Assembly (NCBI GenBank): GCA_025055075.1
Contig: JANWYV010000013.1
Span: 62,001 to 126,000, forward strand
Direction of reading: 5' to 3'
Origin: Blastocatellia bacterium
GTDB lineage: Bacteria; Acidobacteriota; Blastocatellia; HR10
DNA: 64,000 bases
Shown: positions 5,027 to 54,450 of the stretch, piece after piece
Layout: the number at the start of each line of letters is the position of its first letter
Numbering within the stretch: position 1 is the stretch's first letter
Made by a program: the position numbers and the translations under genes
Notes under the pieces: model-generated
Database searches by the model: none
The model's input: only the letters and a program-made list of their open reading frames with translations
Told to the model about the DNA's origin: nothing

Positions 5027-5992
5027 ATGCTCAGTCAGGTCGTCGAGTTGATCGAAGCGAAGCACTGTTTCGCCATCACCTCGCACGCGCGGCCAGATGG
5101 AGATGGGCTCGGTTCCTCGCTCGCCCTCATGCACATTCTGGAGAGCTTGGGCAAGGACGTCACCGTCGGCATGCGCGATCCGATCCCGCGCGCCTATCGG
5201 GAGCTGCCGGGGGCGGATCGCATCCTTCAGATCACCCGCTTCGACAAACGCTATGATGCTGTCTTCGTCATCGAGTGCAGCGATGTGGATCGGCCCGGCT
5301 TGCTCGATCTGGAGGAGCAGTTCCTGGTGAACATTGACCATCACGCGACGACGGAGCTGTTCGGCGACATCAACTGGATTGACTCGACGGCTTCGGCGGT
5401 CGGCGAGATGATCTACAATCTCTGCAAAGCGCTCGGCGTGCGCGTGACGCCGGCGATCGCCTCGTGCGTGTACGCGGCCATTTTGGCCGATACGGGCTCG
5501 TTTCAATTCCCCAACACGACGGAGCGCACGTTCAAGATCGCGCGCGAGCTGGTCGCGCACGGCGCGAATCCATCGGAGATCGCGCGCTTGCTTTTCTACA
5601 ATCACCCCTTCGGCAAAATGAAGCTCACGGGATTGGTCCTCTCGACCCTGCAGCGGGATGAGACCGGGCGGATCGCCTGGATGGTGATGACGCAGGAGAT
5701 GTTGCGGCAGGCCGGAGCCTGCGAAGAGGACAGCGAGGGTATCGTGAATTATCCCCTCGCGATCGAAGGCGTCGAGGTCGTCGCCTTCTTCAAGGAGATC
5801 GCTCCGGGCATCTATCGCACGTCCTTGCGCTCGAAGGGAACGGTCAACGTCTCGAAGATCGCGAGCGCTTTCGGTGGTGGGGGGCATCGCAACGCCTCCG
5901 GATGCGCGCTGGAAGGGCCCTTGCCGGAAGTCGAACGCCGCGTCATTCGGAAGTTGCAGGAAGCGCTCTCGATTCTCCCCGCGCTCACATGA
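5027..5992 (+). CDS. DHH/DHHA1 phosphoesterase, NrnA-like (oligoribonuclease / pAp phosphatase)
   Basis: 321 residues, normal for NrnA. Such enzymes degrade short RNA oligonucleotides and dephosphorylate 3'-phosphoadenosine 5'-phosphate with manganese. Motifs in order: SHARPDGDGLGSSLAL (DHH motif I), VFVIECSDVDRPG, NIDHHATTELFGDINWID (the DHH signature), ADTGSFQFPNTT, and the C-terminal DHHA1 GGGGHRNASG. A TTG at 5012 is in frame but overlaps the -10 box, so the ATG at 5027 is preferred; no Shine-Dalgarno is visible, in keeping with a near-leaderless transcript. The archease gene follows 30 bases downstream on the same strand. Confidence 0.9.
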   Translation: MLSQVVELIEAKHCFAITSHARPDGDGLGSSLALMHILESLGKDVTVGMRDPIPRAYRELPGADRILQITRFDKRYDAVFVIECSDVDRPGLLDLEEQFLVNIDHHATTELFGDINWIDSTASAVGEMIYNLCKALGVRVTPAIASCVYAAILADTGSFQFPNTTERTFKIARELVAHGANPSEIARLLFYNHPFGKMKLTGLVLSTLQRDETGRIAWMVMTQEMLRQAGACEEDSEGIVNYPLAIEGVEVVAFFKEIAPGIYRTSLRSKGTVNVSKIASAFGGGGHRNASGCALEGPLPEVERRVIRKLQEALSILPALT

Positions 5993-6022
5993 ACGCCCTC
6001 ACCTTTGAGCGGAAGCCCTCGC

Positions 6023-6442
6023 ATGAGCGCCGGATTCGAGATCCTCGATCACACGGCTGACATCGGCGTGCGCGCGTGGGGTCGAACTCCGGAAGAGATG
6101 TTCGCACAAGCTGTGCGCGCGCTCTTCCATCTCATGTATGATCCCGCGACGATCGCGCCGCGCTTGACCCGCGAGCTGGAAGTCCGCGCTGAGGGCTACG
6201 AGTATTTGCTCGTGGACCTCTTCAACGAGATCCTCTACCTCTTCGACGCCGAGAAGCTGGCCTTCGCCGATGTCGTTGTTGAGGCGCTCTCCTCAGAACA
6301 CGTCCGCGTTCGCCTCACTGGAGAAGCGTTCGATCCCACCCGACACGAGGGACGGATTTACGTCAAAGCGGCGACCCTCCACCAATTGAAGGTCGAATCC
6401 CGAGACGGTCTGTGGATCGCCGAAGTGTACCTGGACATCTGA
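6023..6442 (+). CDS. Archease family protein
   Basis: 139 residues. Archease is a small SHS2-fold protein that activates the RNA ligase RtcB, which works in tRNA splicing and RNA repair. The signature opening FEILDHTADIGVRAWG and the closing AATLHQLKVESRDGLWIAEVYLDI are both present, including the acidic C-terminal Asp that binds metal in known structures. The ATG at 6023 has GGAAG about 8 bases upstream; a TTG at 6005 is less likely. It follows the DHH gene, suggesting an RNA-processing pair. No rtcB is in the window. The stop is 4 bases from the convergent stop of the next gene. Confidence 0.9.
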   Translation: MSAGFEILDHTADIGVRAWGRTPEEMFAQAVRALFHLMYDPATIAPRLTRELEVRAEGYEYLLVDLFNEILYLFDAEKLAFADVVVEALSSEHVRVRLTGEAFDPTRHEGRIYVKAATLHQLKVESRDGLWIAEVYLDI

Positions 6443-48707: not shown

Positions 48708-51182
48708 ATGATGTGGAAGAACCAATTCGCCCATCGTCGAGTGATGGGGATCGTGCTGTCGCTGTTGGTGAGCCTGAGCCTCTGGCTCCTCGGCGTTGCG
48801 CGCGGGCAGACGCCGGAGACGTACAAGAAACCGCCGCCGGAGATCTTGGAGGTGCTTCATGCGCCGGTCACGCCACAGGTCTCCGTCAGCCCGACGCGCG
48901 ACTTCATGATGCTTATCGAGGGCGTGCGATATCCGCCGATTGCGGATCTGGCGCAGCCGATGTTGCGCCTGGCCGGCCTTCGAATCAATCCCAAGACGAA
49001 TGGGCCGCATCGCGATCCGTACATCGCCTCGCTCACGATCGTCAAGATCGCTGATGGAACGAGCATGAAGGTCGCGCTCCCCTCGGGCGCGCGTCCGAGC
49101 ATTCCGCGCTGGAGCCCGGATGGACGACACTTCGCCTTCCTGAATACGTTGGAGAATGGGATCGAGTTGTGGATAGGTGAGACGGCGACGGGACGGATTC
49201 GTCGGCTCGTCGAGGCGAAGATCAACGCCGCCTATGGAGAACCGTTCCAGTGGATGCCCGATGGTCGCACGTTACTCATTCAACTCATCCCGGAGGGGCG
49301 AGGACGGCCGCCGGAGCCGCCTGCTGTTCCTCTCGGGCCGAACGTTCAAGAGGGAGCCGGGCGTCCCACCCCGGTGCGCACCTATCAAGACTTGCTGCGG
49401 ACGCCGCATGATGAGGTGCTCTTCGAATATTACGCTAGAGCACAGCTCGCCCTGGTAGAAAGCGATACTGGGCGCCTTGCGCGCATTGGCTCGCCCGATA
49501 TCTTTCAAACGGTCGAGCCTTCTCCCAATGGGCAATATCTCCTTGTTGCGCGCGTGCGTCGGCCCTATTCGTATTTGGTGCCGCATACGGCGTTCCCGAA
49601 AGAGGTCGAAGTCTGGGATCGCTCGGGCCGAATGGTCTATAGACTGGCGAGTCTGCCGCTGCAAGAGCACGTGCCGATCGAGGGCGTGCCGACCGGCCCG
49701 CGCGAGTATGCCTGGCGACCGACTGAGCCGGCGACGCTTGTATGGGTCGAAGCCCTCGATGAAGGCGATCCGCGCAAGCGCGTCCCACATCGGGATCGCT
49801 TGATGATGCTCAGCGCGCCGTTCACCAATCCTCCGATCGAGGTGCTGAAGCTCGAACATCGGTTCGCCGGCATTCAATGGGGAGAGAAGGGCGGATGGGC
49901 CTTCGTGCGCGATTACGATCGCAATCGCCGGTGGCGGCGCACCTTCCTGATCACGCCTGATGATCGGACAGCGGTACCGCGCTTGATCTGGAGCCTCAAT
50001 GTGCAGGATCGGTACAACGATCCTGGAACCCCCGTTCTTCGCACGCTGCCTAATGGCCAGCGCGTGATTCAACAGGATGGCGATTGGATCTTCCTGATTG
50101 GTGCTGGAGCTTCGCCCGAGGGCGAACGGCCCTTCCTGGATCGGTTCAATTTGAAGACGCTCGCGACCGAGCGCCTCTTCCGGTGCGATGAGCAGAGTTA
50201 CGAGATGGTCATCGCCGTGCTGCGGGATGATGGCACGGAAGTACTCACGCGCCGGGAGACGTCCACCGATCCACCGAACTATTACGTCCGCACGCTGCGC
50301 GCGGGAGGAACGGTCGCACTCCGAGCGCTCACGCGCTTTCCAGATCCGACGCCGCAGCTTCGGAAGATCAAAAAGCAATTGGTCACCTACCAGCGCGAAG
50401 ATGGGGTGCAGCTCTCGTTCACCCTCTATCTGCCGCCCGACTACAAAGAGGGGACGCGCTTGCCGACAGTCGTCTGGGCGTATCCCATCGAGTTCACCGA
50501 TCCGACGGTCGCCAGCCAGGTCGCTGGTTCGCCCCATCGGTTCTTGACGATTCAAGGGGCGTCGCATCTGTTCTTCGTCTTGGCCGGGTATGCCGTGCTG
50601 GATAACGCGGCCATGCCCGTGGTCGGCGATCCGGAGACGGTCAACAATACGTTCCTCGATCAAATCGTCATGAATGCGCGCGCGGCGATTCGCAAAGCTG
50701 TCGAGATGGGCGTGACTGATCCCGATCGCGTGGGCGTCGCCGGTCACAGCTACGGGGGCTTCATGACGGCGAACTTACTCGCGCATTCAGATCTGTTTCG
50801 CGCGGGTATCGCTCGCAGCGGAGCGTACAATCGCACGCTGACGCCTTTCGGCTTCCAAAACGAACGGCGCACGCTTTGGGAAGCGCCCGATCTCTACATC
50901 AAGGTCTCGCCGCTCATGTCCGCGCACAAGATCAACGAGCCTCTGCTGCTCATCCACGGAGAGGCGGATAACAATCCCGGGACGTTCCCGATCCAATCCG
51001 AGCGCCTGTATCACGCCGTTCGCGGCAACGGGGGGACAGTTCGCTTGGTCATGCTCCCGTACGAATCGCACGGCTATGTTGCGCGCGAATCGGTCGAGCA
51101 CGTCATCTACGAGATGCTCGCCTGGTTCGAGAAGTACGTCAAAAACGCGCCGCCGCGCGAGCGCGTGAATGTCCCTCAGTGA
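48708..51182 (+). CDS. Secreted S9-family peptidase (glutamyl/prolyl oligopeptidase-like)
   Basis: 824 residues with a signal peptide (VMGIVLSLLVSLSLWLLGVARGQ). An N-terminal propeller-like region of about 530 residues has WSPDGRHFAFLN-type repeats. The C-terminal alpha/beta-hydrolase domain carries the Ser nucleophile in VAGHSYGGFMTANLL, an Asp in LLIHGEADNNPGTFPIQ and the His in LPYESHGYVARE. Such enzymes cut short peptides after Pro or acidic residues; this layout suggests the glutamyl endopeptidase-like branch. Expected in the periplasm. A hairpin terminator follows. Confidence 0.9.
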   Translation: MMWKNQFAHRRVMGIVLSLLVSLSLWLLGVARGQTPETYKKPPPEILEVLHAPVTPQVSVSPTRDFMMLIEGVRYPPIADLAQPMLRLAGLRINPKTNGPHRDPYIASLTIVKIADGTSMKVALPSGARPSIPRWSPDGRHFAFLNTLENGIELWIGETATGRIRRLVEAKINAAYGEPFQWMPDGRTLLIQLIPEGRGRPPEPPAVPLGPNVQEGAGRPTPVRTYQDLLRTPHDEVLFEYYARAQLALVESDTGRLARIGSPDIFQTVEPSPNGQYLLVARVRRPYSYLVPHTAFPKEVEVWDRSGRMVYRLASLPLQEHVPIEGVPTGPREYAWRPTEPATLVWVEALDEGDPRKRVPHRDRLMMLSAPFTNPPIEVLKLEHRFAGIQWGEKGGWAFVRDYDRNRRWRRTFLITPDDRTAVPRLIWSLNVQDRYNDPGTPVLRTLPNGQRVIQQDGDWIFLIGAGASPEGERPFLDRFNLKTLATERLFRCDEQSYEMVIAVLRDDGTEVLTRRETSTDPPNYYVRTLRAGGTVALRALTRFPDPTPQLRKIKKQLVTYQREDGVQLSFTLYLPPDYKEGTRLPTVVWAYPIEFTDPTVASQVAGSPHRFLTIQGASHLFFVLAGYAVLDNAAMPVVGDPETVNNTFLDQIVMNARAAIRKAVEMGVTDPDRVGVAGHSYGGFMTANLLAHSDLFRAGIARSGAYNRTLTPFGFQNERRTLWEAPDLYIKVSPLMSAHKINEPLLLIHGEADNNPGTFPIQSERLYHAVRGNGGTVRLVMLPYESHGYVARESVEHVIYEMLAWFEKYVKNAPPRERVNVPQ

Positions 51183-51188
51183 GGGAGT

Positions 51189-51223
51189 GGACTCCTTGCG
51201 CGCGAGCGAGCGCGAAGGAGTCC
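51189..51223 (+). terminator. Terminator after the S9 peptidase gene
   Basis: GGACTCCTT at 51189 pairs with AAGGAGTCC ending at 51223, with further GCGC pairing inside, then CTTTG. The hairpin is clear but the T-tract is short. Confidence 0.7.
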
Positions 51224-51261
51224 CTTTGATCCGCTGGGCTCAATGGAAGTCGCGAGGGGGC

Positions 51262-51507
51262 TTGACAGAGAGGTGGAGCTTGTGAAAAATTCTGAGCCTT
51301 GCGATTCGCGCGGCCTGTGGGATGAGGCGCATGCGTAGGCTTAGCTCGCAAAGGAAGGAGTGGAATGACCGCCGGATGGTCATGTGTTGTTGTCCTTGGC
51401 CGAGGAGTGGCTCTCCGGCGGTGGCGTTCGTGAGCTGAGCCGGACGCGACACCGTATCGGGATTGAAAGAACCCACTGCCGGAGAGATTCCGGCGGTGGG
51501 TTTTTTT
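51262..51507 (+). promoter_or_regulatory. Structured leader with attenuator (putative riboswitch) upstream of cysM-like gene
   Basis: A TTGACA at 51262 may be the -35 box (the -10 is weak). The leader has CCTTGCGA/TCGCAAAGG pairing around 51297-51352, then four interacting segments. A (51368-51376, ACCGCCGGA) pairs with B (51414-51422, TCCGGCGGT). B, extended to CTCTCCGGCGGTGG (51411-51424), pairs over 14 bases with C (51473-51486, one G-U). C (51472-51483) pairs with D (51489-51500) to make a terminator hairpin followed by seven T. The three states are mutually exclusive, the layout of an attenuator. No known riboswitch class was recognised. Confidence 0.75.
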
Positions 51508-51524
51508 ATGGGCATCGAACGAAC

Positions 51525-52511
51525 ATGTGGCGAGGATCGCCCATAAGGAAAGCGAGTGAAGCCTCGAAAGCGTTGGAGGGCCATCGGGCGATCTGGCGCG
51601 AATGGGAGCGGCCGACCGATCTGCTGTCGCTAGTTGGGCGGACGCCGCTTCTTCGGTTGTCGCGGATCGCGAGTGAATTCTCCGGCGTGGAGATTTACGC
51701 CAAAGCGGAGTGGTACAACCCCGGGGGATCGGTGAAAGATCGGGCGGGACTTTGGATCATTCGGGAAGCGGAGGCCACGGGACAGTTGACCCCGGAGAAG
51801 ATCATCCTCGATGCGACTTCGGGCAACACAGGCATCGCCTATGCGTGGATCGCGCGGGTGAAGGGGTATCGGGTGACGCTGGCCATTCCGGCCAACGTGA
51901 CGCCGGAGCGAAAGCGTATTTTGAGCGCTTTAGGAGCTGAGCTGATCTTCACCGATCCTCGGGAGGGATCTGATGGAGCGATCCGTATGGCGCGGCGTTT
52001 GGCAGCCGAGCATCCAGAGCGATACTTCTACGCCGATCAGTACAACAATCCGGCCAATTGGCGCGCGCATTACGAGACGACGGGCGTGGAGATCTTCGAG
52101 CAAACGGAAGGACGGATCACGCATTTTGTCGCTGGCTTGGGTACGAGCGGGACATTCGTGGGAGCCGGACGTCGTCTGCGCGAGCTGTGCCCTGGGATCA
52201 CGCTCGTATCGGTGCAACCGAATGGGCCGTTTCATGGGATCGAGGGCTTGAAGCATATGCCGACGGCCATTCGACCGGGCATTTACGATAAGACGTTGGC
52301 GGACGTGAATCTGGAGGTGGCGACCGAAGAGGCATATGCGATGGTGCGGCGCTTGGCGCGCGAAGAAGGGATGTTGGTGGGCGTCTCTTCGGGAGCGGCT
52401 CTGGCCGGTGTGCTTCGCATCGCGCGGACGCTTCGACGAGGCGTTATCGTCACGGTCTTCCCCGACAGTGGGGACAAGTACTTGAGCGAGCGCTTTTGGG
52501 AGGAGCTATGA
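51525..52511 (+). CDS. cysM: Cysteine synthase (CysM/CysK-like PLP enzyme)
   Basis: 328 residues from ATG 51525. LSLVGRTPLLRLSRIA opens the catalytic fold. The PLP lysine is in YNPGGSVKDRAGLW; TSGNTGIAYAWIA, LGTSGTFVGAGRRL (phosphate loop) and VGVSSGAALAGVLRIAR complete it. The enzyme makes cysteine from an activated serine and a sulfur donor. Its neighbours, a JAMM peptidase and a sulfur-carrier/E1 fusion, match the mycobacterial CysM-CysO-Mec arrangement, so the donor is probably a carrier-protein thiocarboxylate rather than free sulfide. No ribosome site is obvious. The stop overlaps the JAMM gene start (ATGA). Confidence 0.85.
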   Translation: MWRGSPIRKASEASKALEGHRAIWREWERPTDLLSLVGRTPLLRLSRIASEFSGVEIYAKAEWYNPGGSVKDRAGLWIIREAEATGQLTPEKIILDATSGNTGIAYAWIARVKGYRVTLAIPANVTPERKRILSALGAELIFTDPREGSDGAIRMARRLAAEHPERYFYADQYNNPANWRAHYETTGVEIFEQTEGRITHFVAGLGTSGTFVGAGRRLRELCPGITLVSVQPNGPFHGIEGLKHMPTAIRPGIYDKTLADVNLEVATEEAYAMVRRLAREEGMLVGVSSGAALAGVLRIARTLRRGVIVTVFPDSGDKYLSERFWEEL

Positions 52512-52927
52512 TTCGACTCACGATCGAACAACTGGAGGTGATCAAGCGGCATGGGGAGCACGCCTATCCCGAGGAGGGCTGCGGCGTGTTGCTCGGACAT
52601 GTTGAGGGAGAGGCGAAGGTCGTCGAGGAAATTCGCCTGACGCCCAATGCGCGACGGGATTCACCGCGCAACCGCTATGCCATCGCCCCGGAAGAACTGC
52701 TGCGGCTCGAACGCGAGGCGCGTGCTCGTGGGCGCGAAGTCCTCGGCTTCTTCCATTCGCATCCGGATGCTGAGGCGCGCCCGTCCGCCTATGATCTTGA
52801 ACATGCGTGGCCATGGTACTCCTACCTCATCGTCTCGGTTCGAGCGGCGGCCTCTGAGAGCGTGCACTCTTGGGTATTGCGCGAGGATCGTTCGCGGTTC
52901 GAGCAGGAGGAGATTCTCATCGGATGA
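52508..52927 (+). CDS. JAMM/MPN+ metallopeptidase (Mec-like)
   Basis: 139 residues. The zinc motif H-S-H with ten residues before the Asp (FFHSHPDAEARPSAYD) and the upstream Glu in YPEEGCGVLLGH identify a bacterial JAMM peptidase. In mycobacteria the homologue Mec cleaves cysteine from the CysO C-terminal Gly-Gly. Position between cysM and the carrier fusion supports the same role here, and possibly cutting of the fusion at its internal Gly-Gly. GGGAGG precedes the ATG. Confidence 0.88.
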   Translation: MIRLTIEQLEVIKRHGEHAYPEEGCGVLLGHVEGEAKVVEEIRLTPNARRDSPRNRYAIAPEELLRLEREARARGREVLGFFHSHPDAEARPSAYDLEHAWPWYSYLIVSVRAAASESVHSWVLREDRSRFEQEEILIG

Positions 52928-52971: not shown

Positions 52972-54450
52972 ATGCCGGTCAAGATTTCACTGCCGACTGC
53001 TTTGCGGCGATATGCTGCTGAGAGCGATGTGCTTCAGATCGAGGGGCGGACCGTGGGGGAAGCGCTCGCCCAGTTGGTCGAACAGTATCCCGACTTGCGG
53101 CTGCATCTCTTCACCGAAGACGGGCGGCTACGCCACTTCGTCAACGTGTACGTCAACGATGAAGACGTGCGGTATTTGCAGGAGCTGGAGACGCCGGTGA
53201 GAGAAGGGGATGAGATCACCATCGTGCCTTCGGTGGCCGGAGGGAGCGAGCGCGCGTCTTCCGATGGGGGACGGTCGGACAGACTTGCGGCGATCGGCGA
53301 GCGAGCCGAAGCCGTGCGGCTCAGCCCAGAGGAGATTCTGCGCTACAGCCGCCATCTCATCATGCCGGAAGTGACGATGGAAGGACAGCGGCGGCTCAAA
53401 GCGGCGCGCGTCTTGATCGTGGGAGCCGGAGGCTTGGGCTCACCCTTGGCGTTGTATTTGGCGGCCGCCGGCGTCGGACGGATCGGGCTCGTGGACTTCG
53501 ACGTCGTGGATTTCACGAACCTTCAACGGCAGGTCCTCTATACGACGTATGACGTCGGTCAGCCCAAGCTCCAGAAGGCCAAGGAGCGGCTCCACGCGAT
53601 CAATCCGCACATCGAGATTGAGACCTATGAGATGCGGCTCACCTCGGCGAATGCGCTCGACATTTTGCGCGACTATGATGTGATTGTGGATGGCACGGAC
53701 AATTTCCCGACGCGGTATCTCGTCAACGATGCCTGCGTGCTGCTCGGCAAGCCGAACGTCTATGGGAGCATCTTTCGTTTCGAGGGACAGGCGTCGGTCT
53801 TCTATGCCGAGCGGGGACCGTGCTACCGCTGTTTGTATCCAGAGCCTCCGCCACCGGGTCTGGTGCCGAGTTGCGCCGAGGGCGGCGTGCTCGGCGTTCT
53901 GCCGGGGATCATCGGCGCGATTCAAGCCAATGAGACGATCAAGCTCATTCTGGGGCGAGGGGAGCCGCTCATCGGCCGGCTTCTGCTCTTCGATGCCTGG
54001 CGCATGCAGTTCCGCACGGTGAAGGTGCGCAAAGATCCGCAGTGCCCGATTTGCGGCGAACGTCCGACGATTCGCGAGCTGATTGACTACGAGGAGTTCT
54101 GCGGCGTGACGCCCGAGCCGGTGCTCGCCGAGGAGTTGGAGATCACGCCGCGTCAGTTGAAAGAACGTCTCGATCGCGGCGAGCCCATCTTCTTGCTCGA
54201 TGTCCGCGAGCCTCACGAATGGCAAATCGCGCATCTGCCGGGGGCGACGCTCATCCCGATGAACCGGATTCCGGCGAGCCTGCACGAGCTGCCGACGACC
54301 GACGAGATCGTCGTCTACTGCAGGACGGGGGGGCGTAGCGCGCAGGTCCTTCGATTCCTCTACAACGCGGGCTTCCGGCGGATCAAGAACCTCAAAGGGG
54401 GGATTGATCGTTGGGCCGTCGAAGTGGATCCGAGCATGCCCCGGTATTGA
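52972..54450 (+). CDS. Sulfur-carrier (MoaD/ThiS-like) - MoeB/ThiF E1 - rhodanese fusion
   Basis: 492 residues from ATG 52972 (AAAGGAGGAG upstream). Residues 1-91 are a ubiquitin-like sulfur carrier ending VPSVAGG (Gly90-Gly91), followed by a linker with a second GG at 99-100. Residues ~118-372 are an E1-like adenylyltransferase: VLIVGAGGLGSPLALYL, VDFDVVDFTNLQRQ, DGTDNFPTRYL, zinc pairs Cys284/287 and Cys358/361, and Cys301. Residues ~390-485 are a rhodanese with active-site Cys450 (VVYCRTGGRS). It would adenylate and thiolate a carrier C-terminus for cysteine or cofactor synthesis. For its own carrier to work, the chain must be cut after Gly91. Confidence 0.9.
   Translation: MPVKISLPTALRRYAAESDVLQIEGRTVGEALAQLVEQYPDLRLHLFTEDGRLRHFVNVYVNDEDVRYLQELETPVREGDEITIVPSVAGGSERASSDGGRSDRLAAIGERAEAVRLSPEEILRYSRHLIMPEVTMEGQRRLKAARVLIVGAGGLGSPLALYLAAAGVGRIGLVDFDVVDFTNLQRQVLYTTYDVGQPKLQKAKERLHAINPHIEIETYEMRLTSANALDILRDYDVIVDGTDNFPTRYLVNDACVLLGKPNVYGSIFRFEGQASVFYAERGPCYRCLYPEPPPPGLVPSCAEGGVLGVLPGIIGAIQANETIKLILGRGEPLIGRLLLFDAWRMQFRTVKVRKDPQCPICGERPTIRELIDYEEFCGVTPEPVLAEELEITPRQLKERLDRGEPIFLLDVREPHEWQIAHLPGATLIPMNRIPASLHELPTTDEIVVYCRTGGRSAQVLRFLYNAGFRRIKNLKGGIDRWAVEVDPSMPRY

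Follow-up and report, generated by a model that had tools for sequence, protein, structure and literature searches.

A predicted cysteine-codon transcription attenuator ahead of a cysM-JAMM-sulfur carrier operon in Acidobacteriota, with related leaders in other bacteria

The 64,000-nucleotide stretch of DNA analysed here (the window) very probably contains a ribosome-mediated transcription attenuator of the trp type, which would sense charged tRNA-Cys and control a cysM-JAMM-sulfur carrier-E1-rhodanese operon. This reading was built from the sequences of the window and its relatives, in which a short open reading frame with consecutive Cys codons is placed between a promoter-like site and an intrinsic terminator, and mutually exclusive helices connect that frame to the terminator. 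The genome belongs to the Acidobacteriota, its named relatives falling in Blastocatellia together with the bins HRbin08 and HRbin10, and we compared nine cysM loci: the window, four sister species (L003-L006), L007 from one genus of the family, and L008-L010 from three genomes of the order. All features of the window lie on the + strand.

A consensus scan of 50700-52000 found a single sigma-70-like site, TTGACA separated by 17 nt from AAAAAT (51262..51290, with AAAAAT at 51285-51290), and the stretch is therefore best read as a transcribed leader of about 210 nt, with transcription expected to start near 51297. Between this site and the terminator lies a leader peptide ORF, MRRLSSQRKEWNDRRMVMCCCPWPRSGSPAVAFVS (51331..51438), which the first-pass annotation had not recorded. 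Its start is uncertain, the best ATG being at 51331 and further in-frame ATGs occurring at 51322, 51376 and 51382; its stop is the TGA at 51436-51438. Three consecutive Cys codons, TGT TGT TGT, occupy 51385..51393. The leader has a weak ribosome-binding site in the window and two sisters, and a good one in L005-L007. Another candidate leader, an SD-preceded ORF at 51365 (MTAGWSCVVV..., one Cys), was rejected, as L003, L005 and L006 lack its start and several relatives interrupt its frame.

Four segments of the leader can pair in alternative ways. Segment A (1), ACCGCCGGA at 51368-51376, extends to ACCGCCGGA.TGGT (51368..51381) and pairs with part of 51409-51423 in a helix of 13 bp with one mismatch; it is the predicted partner of B when the leader is untranslated. 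Segment B (2), CTCTCCGGCGGTGG (51411..51424), lies entirely inside the leader ORF, whose stop codon follows 11 nt later, and can pair with either A or C. Segment C (3), CCACTGCCGGAGAG at 51473-51486 (51472..51486 with its full pairing arm), is common to two mutually exclusive helices, the antiterminator B:C (14 bp including one G-U) and the terminator C:D (12 bp including one G-U, with a 5' arm of strictly 51472-51483). Segment D (4), TCCGGCGGTGGG at 51489-51500, is followed by seven T at 51501-51507, and together they (51489..51507) form the 3' half of an intrinsic terminator at 51472-51507, between the leader ORF and the first structural gene. Duplex energies are -24.7 kcal/mol for A:B, -28.4 for B:C and -27.2 for C:D. 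When 51297-51468 was shuffled 3000 times with its dinucleotides preserved and C kept fixed, no shuffle yielded an equally good B, and A:B in the window was significant by shuffling at p=0.015. The first-pass annotation had placed the four segments at exactly these positions; its lengths for B:C and C:D and its terminator/antiterminator logic were borne out, and its A:B pairing stands at a greater length than the 9 bp that it had given.

The Cys run begins three bases past the extended segment A and so sits between A and B, with 17 nt from the last Cys codon to B. A ribosome held on such Cys codons would cover A and expose B, and a ribosome that moves onward would cover B, the same geometry as in attenuators of the trp type. 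From this arrangement we infer translation of the leader, stalling when Cys-tRNA is low and readthrough that depends on Cys. RNA polymerase would begin near 51297 and a ribosome would start a leader peptide of about 35 codons. If Cys-tRNA were scarce, the ribosome would stall at the Cys codons (51385-51393) and cover A, leaving B free to form the antiterminator with C, so that C:D would not form and the operon would be transcribed. If Cys-tRNA were ample, the ribosome would pass B and reach the stop codon (51436-51438), C:D would form and transcription would terminate in the T tract. On an untranslated leader, A:B would form and leave C free for D, making the predicted default state off. If regulation works in this way, a ribosome stalled for lack of cysteine should switch the operon on. 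The short leader ORF carries what is expected of an attenuator, tandem codons for the amino acid of the pathway (CCC here, three to five Cys in the family), and the genes downstream make or supply cysteine, both in the cysM operon and, in relatives, at cysH and sulfite reductase.

The first gene of the operon is cysM, encoding a cysteine synthase (51525..52511, start uncertain; PALP PF00291, E=1e-70), for which TIGR01138 cysM is the best match at a score slightly under its cut-off. It is followed by a JAMM/Prok-JAB peptidase gene (52496..52927; PF14464, E=4e-25) and by a gene for a fusion of a sulfur carrier (ThiS), an E1 (ThiF/MoeB) and a rhodanese domain (52972..54450; PF02597, PF00899, PF00581). 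The union of ThiS, E1-like ThiF/MoeB and rhodanese in one protein, adjoining a JAMM peptidase and cysM, presumably recalls the mec+-cysO-cysM cluster of M. tuberculosis with MoeZ. In eight genomes of the order no match to CysE/serine acetyltransferase (TIGR01172) exceeded the curated cut-off, and CysM may accordingly use either O-acetyl- or O-phosphoserine as its acceptor.

Comparison within the order shows which parts of the leader are kept. All nine cysM loci (9/9) have the promoter-like TTGACA, a short ORF rich in Cys, and a terminator followed by a T-run; the family loci have three to five consecutive Cys codons (6/6) with 10-17 nt from the last of them to B; and every member of the genus (5/5) has the terminator and the B:C pairing together with an open frame that contains the Cys run. 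Leaders of the genus differ in length by whole codons, and the frame stays open in all five members, with the other two frames interrupted in some. Apart from the Cys run and the B-coded GSPAV, the peptide is not conserved (23 synonymous versus 143 non-synonymous codon differences), so that the position of the ribosome, not the product, appears to matter.

The first-pass annotation had staked its reading on covariation across homologous leaders, and such covariation is present in both B:C and C:D. In a segment alignment (A2) of the nine order loci, which comprises few sequences (7 distinct rows, with five closely related genus members), B:C is paired in 86.5% of cells, against 40-54% when slid, with 5 pairs altered on both sides, and C:D is paired in 98.6%, against 28-60% when slid, with 4 such pairs. 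Columns 24 and 27 show coordinated changes in B, C and D, with a G to A change at column 24 matched by C-to-U in both B and D; several such changes are three-way because C is common to both helices. By shuffling, A:B is significant in the five genus members, whose low p-values are not independent since they are closely related, and in L008-L010, and is not significant in L007; B:C is weak in L008 and L009 (p 0.12-0.19), and several other Cys-leader loci show no significant B:C.

Leaders of this kind also precede other genes of cysteine and sulfate metabolism. A search of ten order genomes with the terminator pattern RCCCAC..GTGGGYTTTT returned few matches, and the reversed control pattern returned none. 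In one genome of the window's family (G005), a tandem pair of Cys leaders, each with a terminator behind it, stands ahead of a PAPS-reductase gene (cysH), and a further Cys leader (RCMCCCPM) with a terminator precedes a sulfite/nitrite reductase-type gene, while a second genome of the order (G007) has a CCCCC leader and terminator ahead of cysH. B:C p-values for these leaders are 0.001, 0.001, 0.03 and 0.03 (range 0.001-0.032). Because Cys codons stand ahead of three different cysteine/sulfate genes, the amino-acid specificity is convincing. The tandem units of G005, MVAVALKRKVEVSRLRRSGMCCLDMSQMCCRP... and MNDRRQRRSALRVICWWCRPQCMLQ... (contig C58, L201 reverse complement, about 5612-6120), form an unusual double attenuator upstream of cysH. 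In the window's own genome, the stretches examined upstream of cysS and of the cysH operon contain no Cys leader, and in eight order genomes we saw no Cys-run leader with a terminator before cysS. Searches by DNA, pattern and family found the cysM leader once in its own genome; two other terminator-pattern matches, on other contigs and without a Cys ORF, were discarded as second copies.

To look beyond the order, we sampled 80 cysM loci from GTDB genomes together with class-wide sets around one Ignavibacteria and one Anaerolineae genome. A short ORF with at least three consecutive Cys codons lies upstream of 26 of 148 non-redundant cysM genes; the corresponding counts are 56 of 6000 for random windows and 9 of 825 for upstream regions of other genes in those loci, an enrichment of about 17-fold ahead of cysM. 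Cys-run leaders on the Ignavibacteria side include L049 (YACCCCRIC), L071 (AAACCCCCCMP), L109 (MSCYCACCNC), L115, L128 and L133, and those on the Anaerolineae side L088, L144, L145, L146 and L147. In L049, L071 and L109, B:C reaches the floor of the shuffle test (p=0.003), and L128 gives p=0.023; these four loci have 8-18 nt from the last Cys codon to B, and L049 and L071 share the operon of the window, with cysM, JAMM and a ThiS-E1-rhodanese fusion. The predicted attenuator anatomy of the window precedes a matching operon in Ignavibacteria. A:B is not significant by shuffling in most Ignavibacteria, as in L007, so that the translation-off branch appears to be less general. Two loci with this CysM type, L085 and L110, come from public metagenome-assembled genomes whose titles, 'Bifidobacterium breve' and 'Bordetella parapertussis', look mislabelled.

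The Anaerolineae loci bear on an alternative in which cysteine would act on translation or mRNA stability, as in mycobacterial poly-Cys ORFs, and the hairpin would be a minor, partial terminator. Terminators or B:C are mostly absent or non-significant in the Cys-leader loci of this class, and we accordingly do not claim transcription attenuation for Anaerolineae; several of its cysM loci have Cys leaders with no clear terminator, and terminator-less Cys leaders have likewise been reported in Actinobacteria (PMC1262725). Within the window's order, however, the T7 terminator is retained and covaries with B and C, and cysM starts outside and past the hairpin, which makes this alternative very unlikely for the window. 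In Thermoflexus and relatives (L059, L064, L078, L083, L086), the short ORFs conserved 220-420 nt ahead of the cysM match end in ...CICPGRGR, with the Cys codons near the stop. In family f8 of the window's class (L017, L019, L021, L026), a short poly-Cys-tailed ORF, e.g. MNYKASTNCYATIDTRCCCCC, overlaps the first cysM codons out of frame, and could either sense Cys at the level of translation or be a by-product of an Ala/Val-rich N-terminus.

A second alternative, raised by the first-pass annotation, is a metabolite riboswitch in which 51297-51352 would be an aptamer and cysteine, O-acetylserine, O-phosphoserine or SAM would select between B:C and C:D. The 5' part of the window's leader does fold (-22.2 kcal/mol) and an expression platform of antiterminator and terminator exists, but each genus member folds this region differently, and the stem at 51297-51352 is not kept in the four sister species and varies in length. 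What is conserved is instead an open frame with a Cys run between promoter and terminator, which a riboswitch leaves unexplained. The annotation had matched no known class by eye, and an Rfam scan agreed, with no family at its gathering score anywhere in the window; matches at relaxed thresholds were sub-threshold, driven mostly by the terminator hairpin and at best 25.2 bits against a cut-off of 58 (ncS01), and were set aside. We therefore find the proposal of a new riboswitch not supported and extremely unlikely to be correct. The expectation that the leader senses a sulfur or amino-acid metabolite had the right direction, as the trp-type attenuator would respond to cysteine through aminoacylated tRNA-Cys. 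The chance that the leader is a T-box-like tRNA-binding element, or a constitutive terminator ending a short RNA, with an incidental Cys ORF, is close to nil: a terminator exists and sub-threshold sRNA matches occur, but the T-box covariance model has no match, and Cys-run ORFs are enriched before cysM and recur before cysH and sulfite reductase.

We tentatively propose, at somewhat less than even confidence, that poly-Cys leaders reading tRNA-Cys charging are a general control of cysteine synthesis in several phyla (Acidobacteriota, Ignavibacteria and Chloroflexota), with a small regulon (cysM-JAMM-sulfur carrier, cysH and sulfite reductase), attenuation that is sometimes tandem, and translation-level variants elsewhere, including the out-of-frame uORF overlapping cysM. 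Cysteine attenuators appear in any case to be unexpectedly widespread, with predicted members in at least one phylum besides Acidobacteriota. In a literature search that was thin on subscription papers, no complete Cys attenuator came up either ahead of cysM-JAMM-sulfur-carrier genes or cysH, or in Acidobacteriota or Ignavibacteria. Cys attenuation as a kind is already known; what is new, as far as could be checked, is the cysM member together with its gene context and spread. These leaders suggest that, in at least two phyla, cysteine synthesis by the CysM-JAMM-ThiS/E1 sulfur-carrier route is linked to the charging of tRNA-Cys, and the combination of a Cys-run ORF, segment B and a terminator provides a search rule for the cysteine regulons of uncultured bacteria.

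T-box leaders of Firmicutes bind tRNA directly, have no leader ORF and control termination. Like them, the window's leader is predicted to read tRNA charging and control termination; unlike them, it has a leader ORF and no Rfam match. In logic it resembles the trp, his and leu attenuators of the E. coli type, with which it shares tandem regulatory codons, mutually exclusive helices (2:3, 3:4 and a candidate 1:2), an intrinsic terminator and, by prediction, control of an operon that makes the amino acid sensed; it differs in its Cys codons, its cysM-JAMM-sulfur carrier operon and its host phylum, Acidobacteriota, and no sequence relation to those attenuators is shown. In Rhodobacterales, the uORFC-8-2 motif before cysS combines a two-Cys-codon ORF with a terminator and is predicted to act by ribosome-mediated attenuation according to tRNA-Cys charging (PMC8632094). 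A terminator and a short ORF with tandem Cys codons are common to both elements, but uORFC-8-2 places its two Cys codons within a stem, before a cysteinyl-tRNA synthetase (PMC8632094), whereas here the Cys run is followed by a separate B and then by biosynthetic or assimilatory genes, in the window cysM rather than cysS. Predictions of Cys leader peptides also exist for the cys operons of Mycobacterium and P. acnes and for cbs in B. longum, with no conserved terminator hairpins (PMC1262725), and the poly-Cys leaderless ORFs of M. smegmatis are described as acting by translation attenuation (Canestrari 2020, as cited in PMC13236596). Like these Actinobacterial elements, the window's leader places consecutive Cys codons in a short ORF ahead of cysteine genes; unlike the mycobacterial poly-Cys attenuators, it has a strong terminator between the leader and the first gene, and it thereby supplies the complete terminator/antiterminator that is missing from the Actinobacterial Cys leaders.
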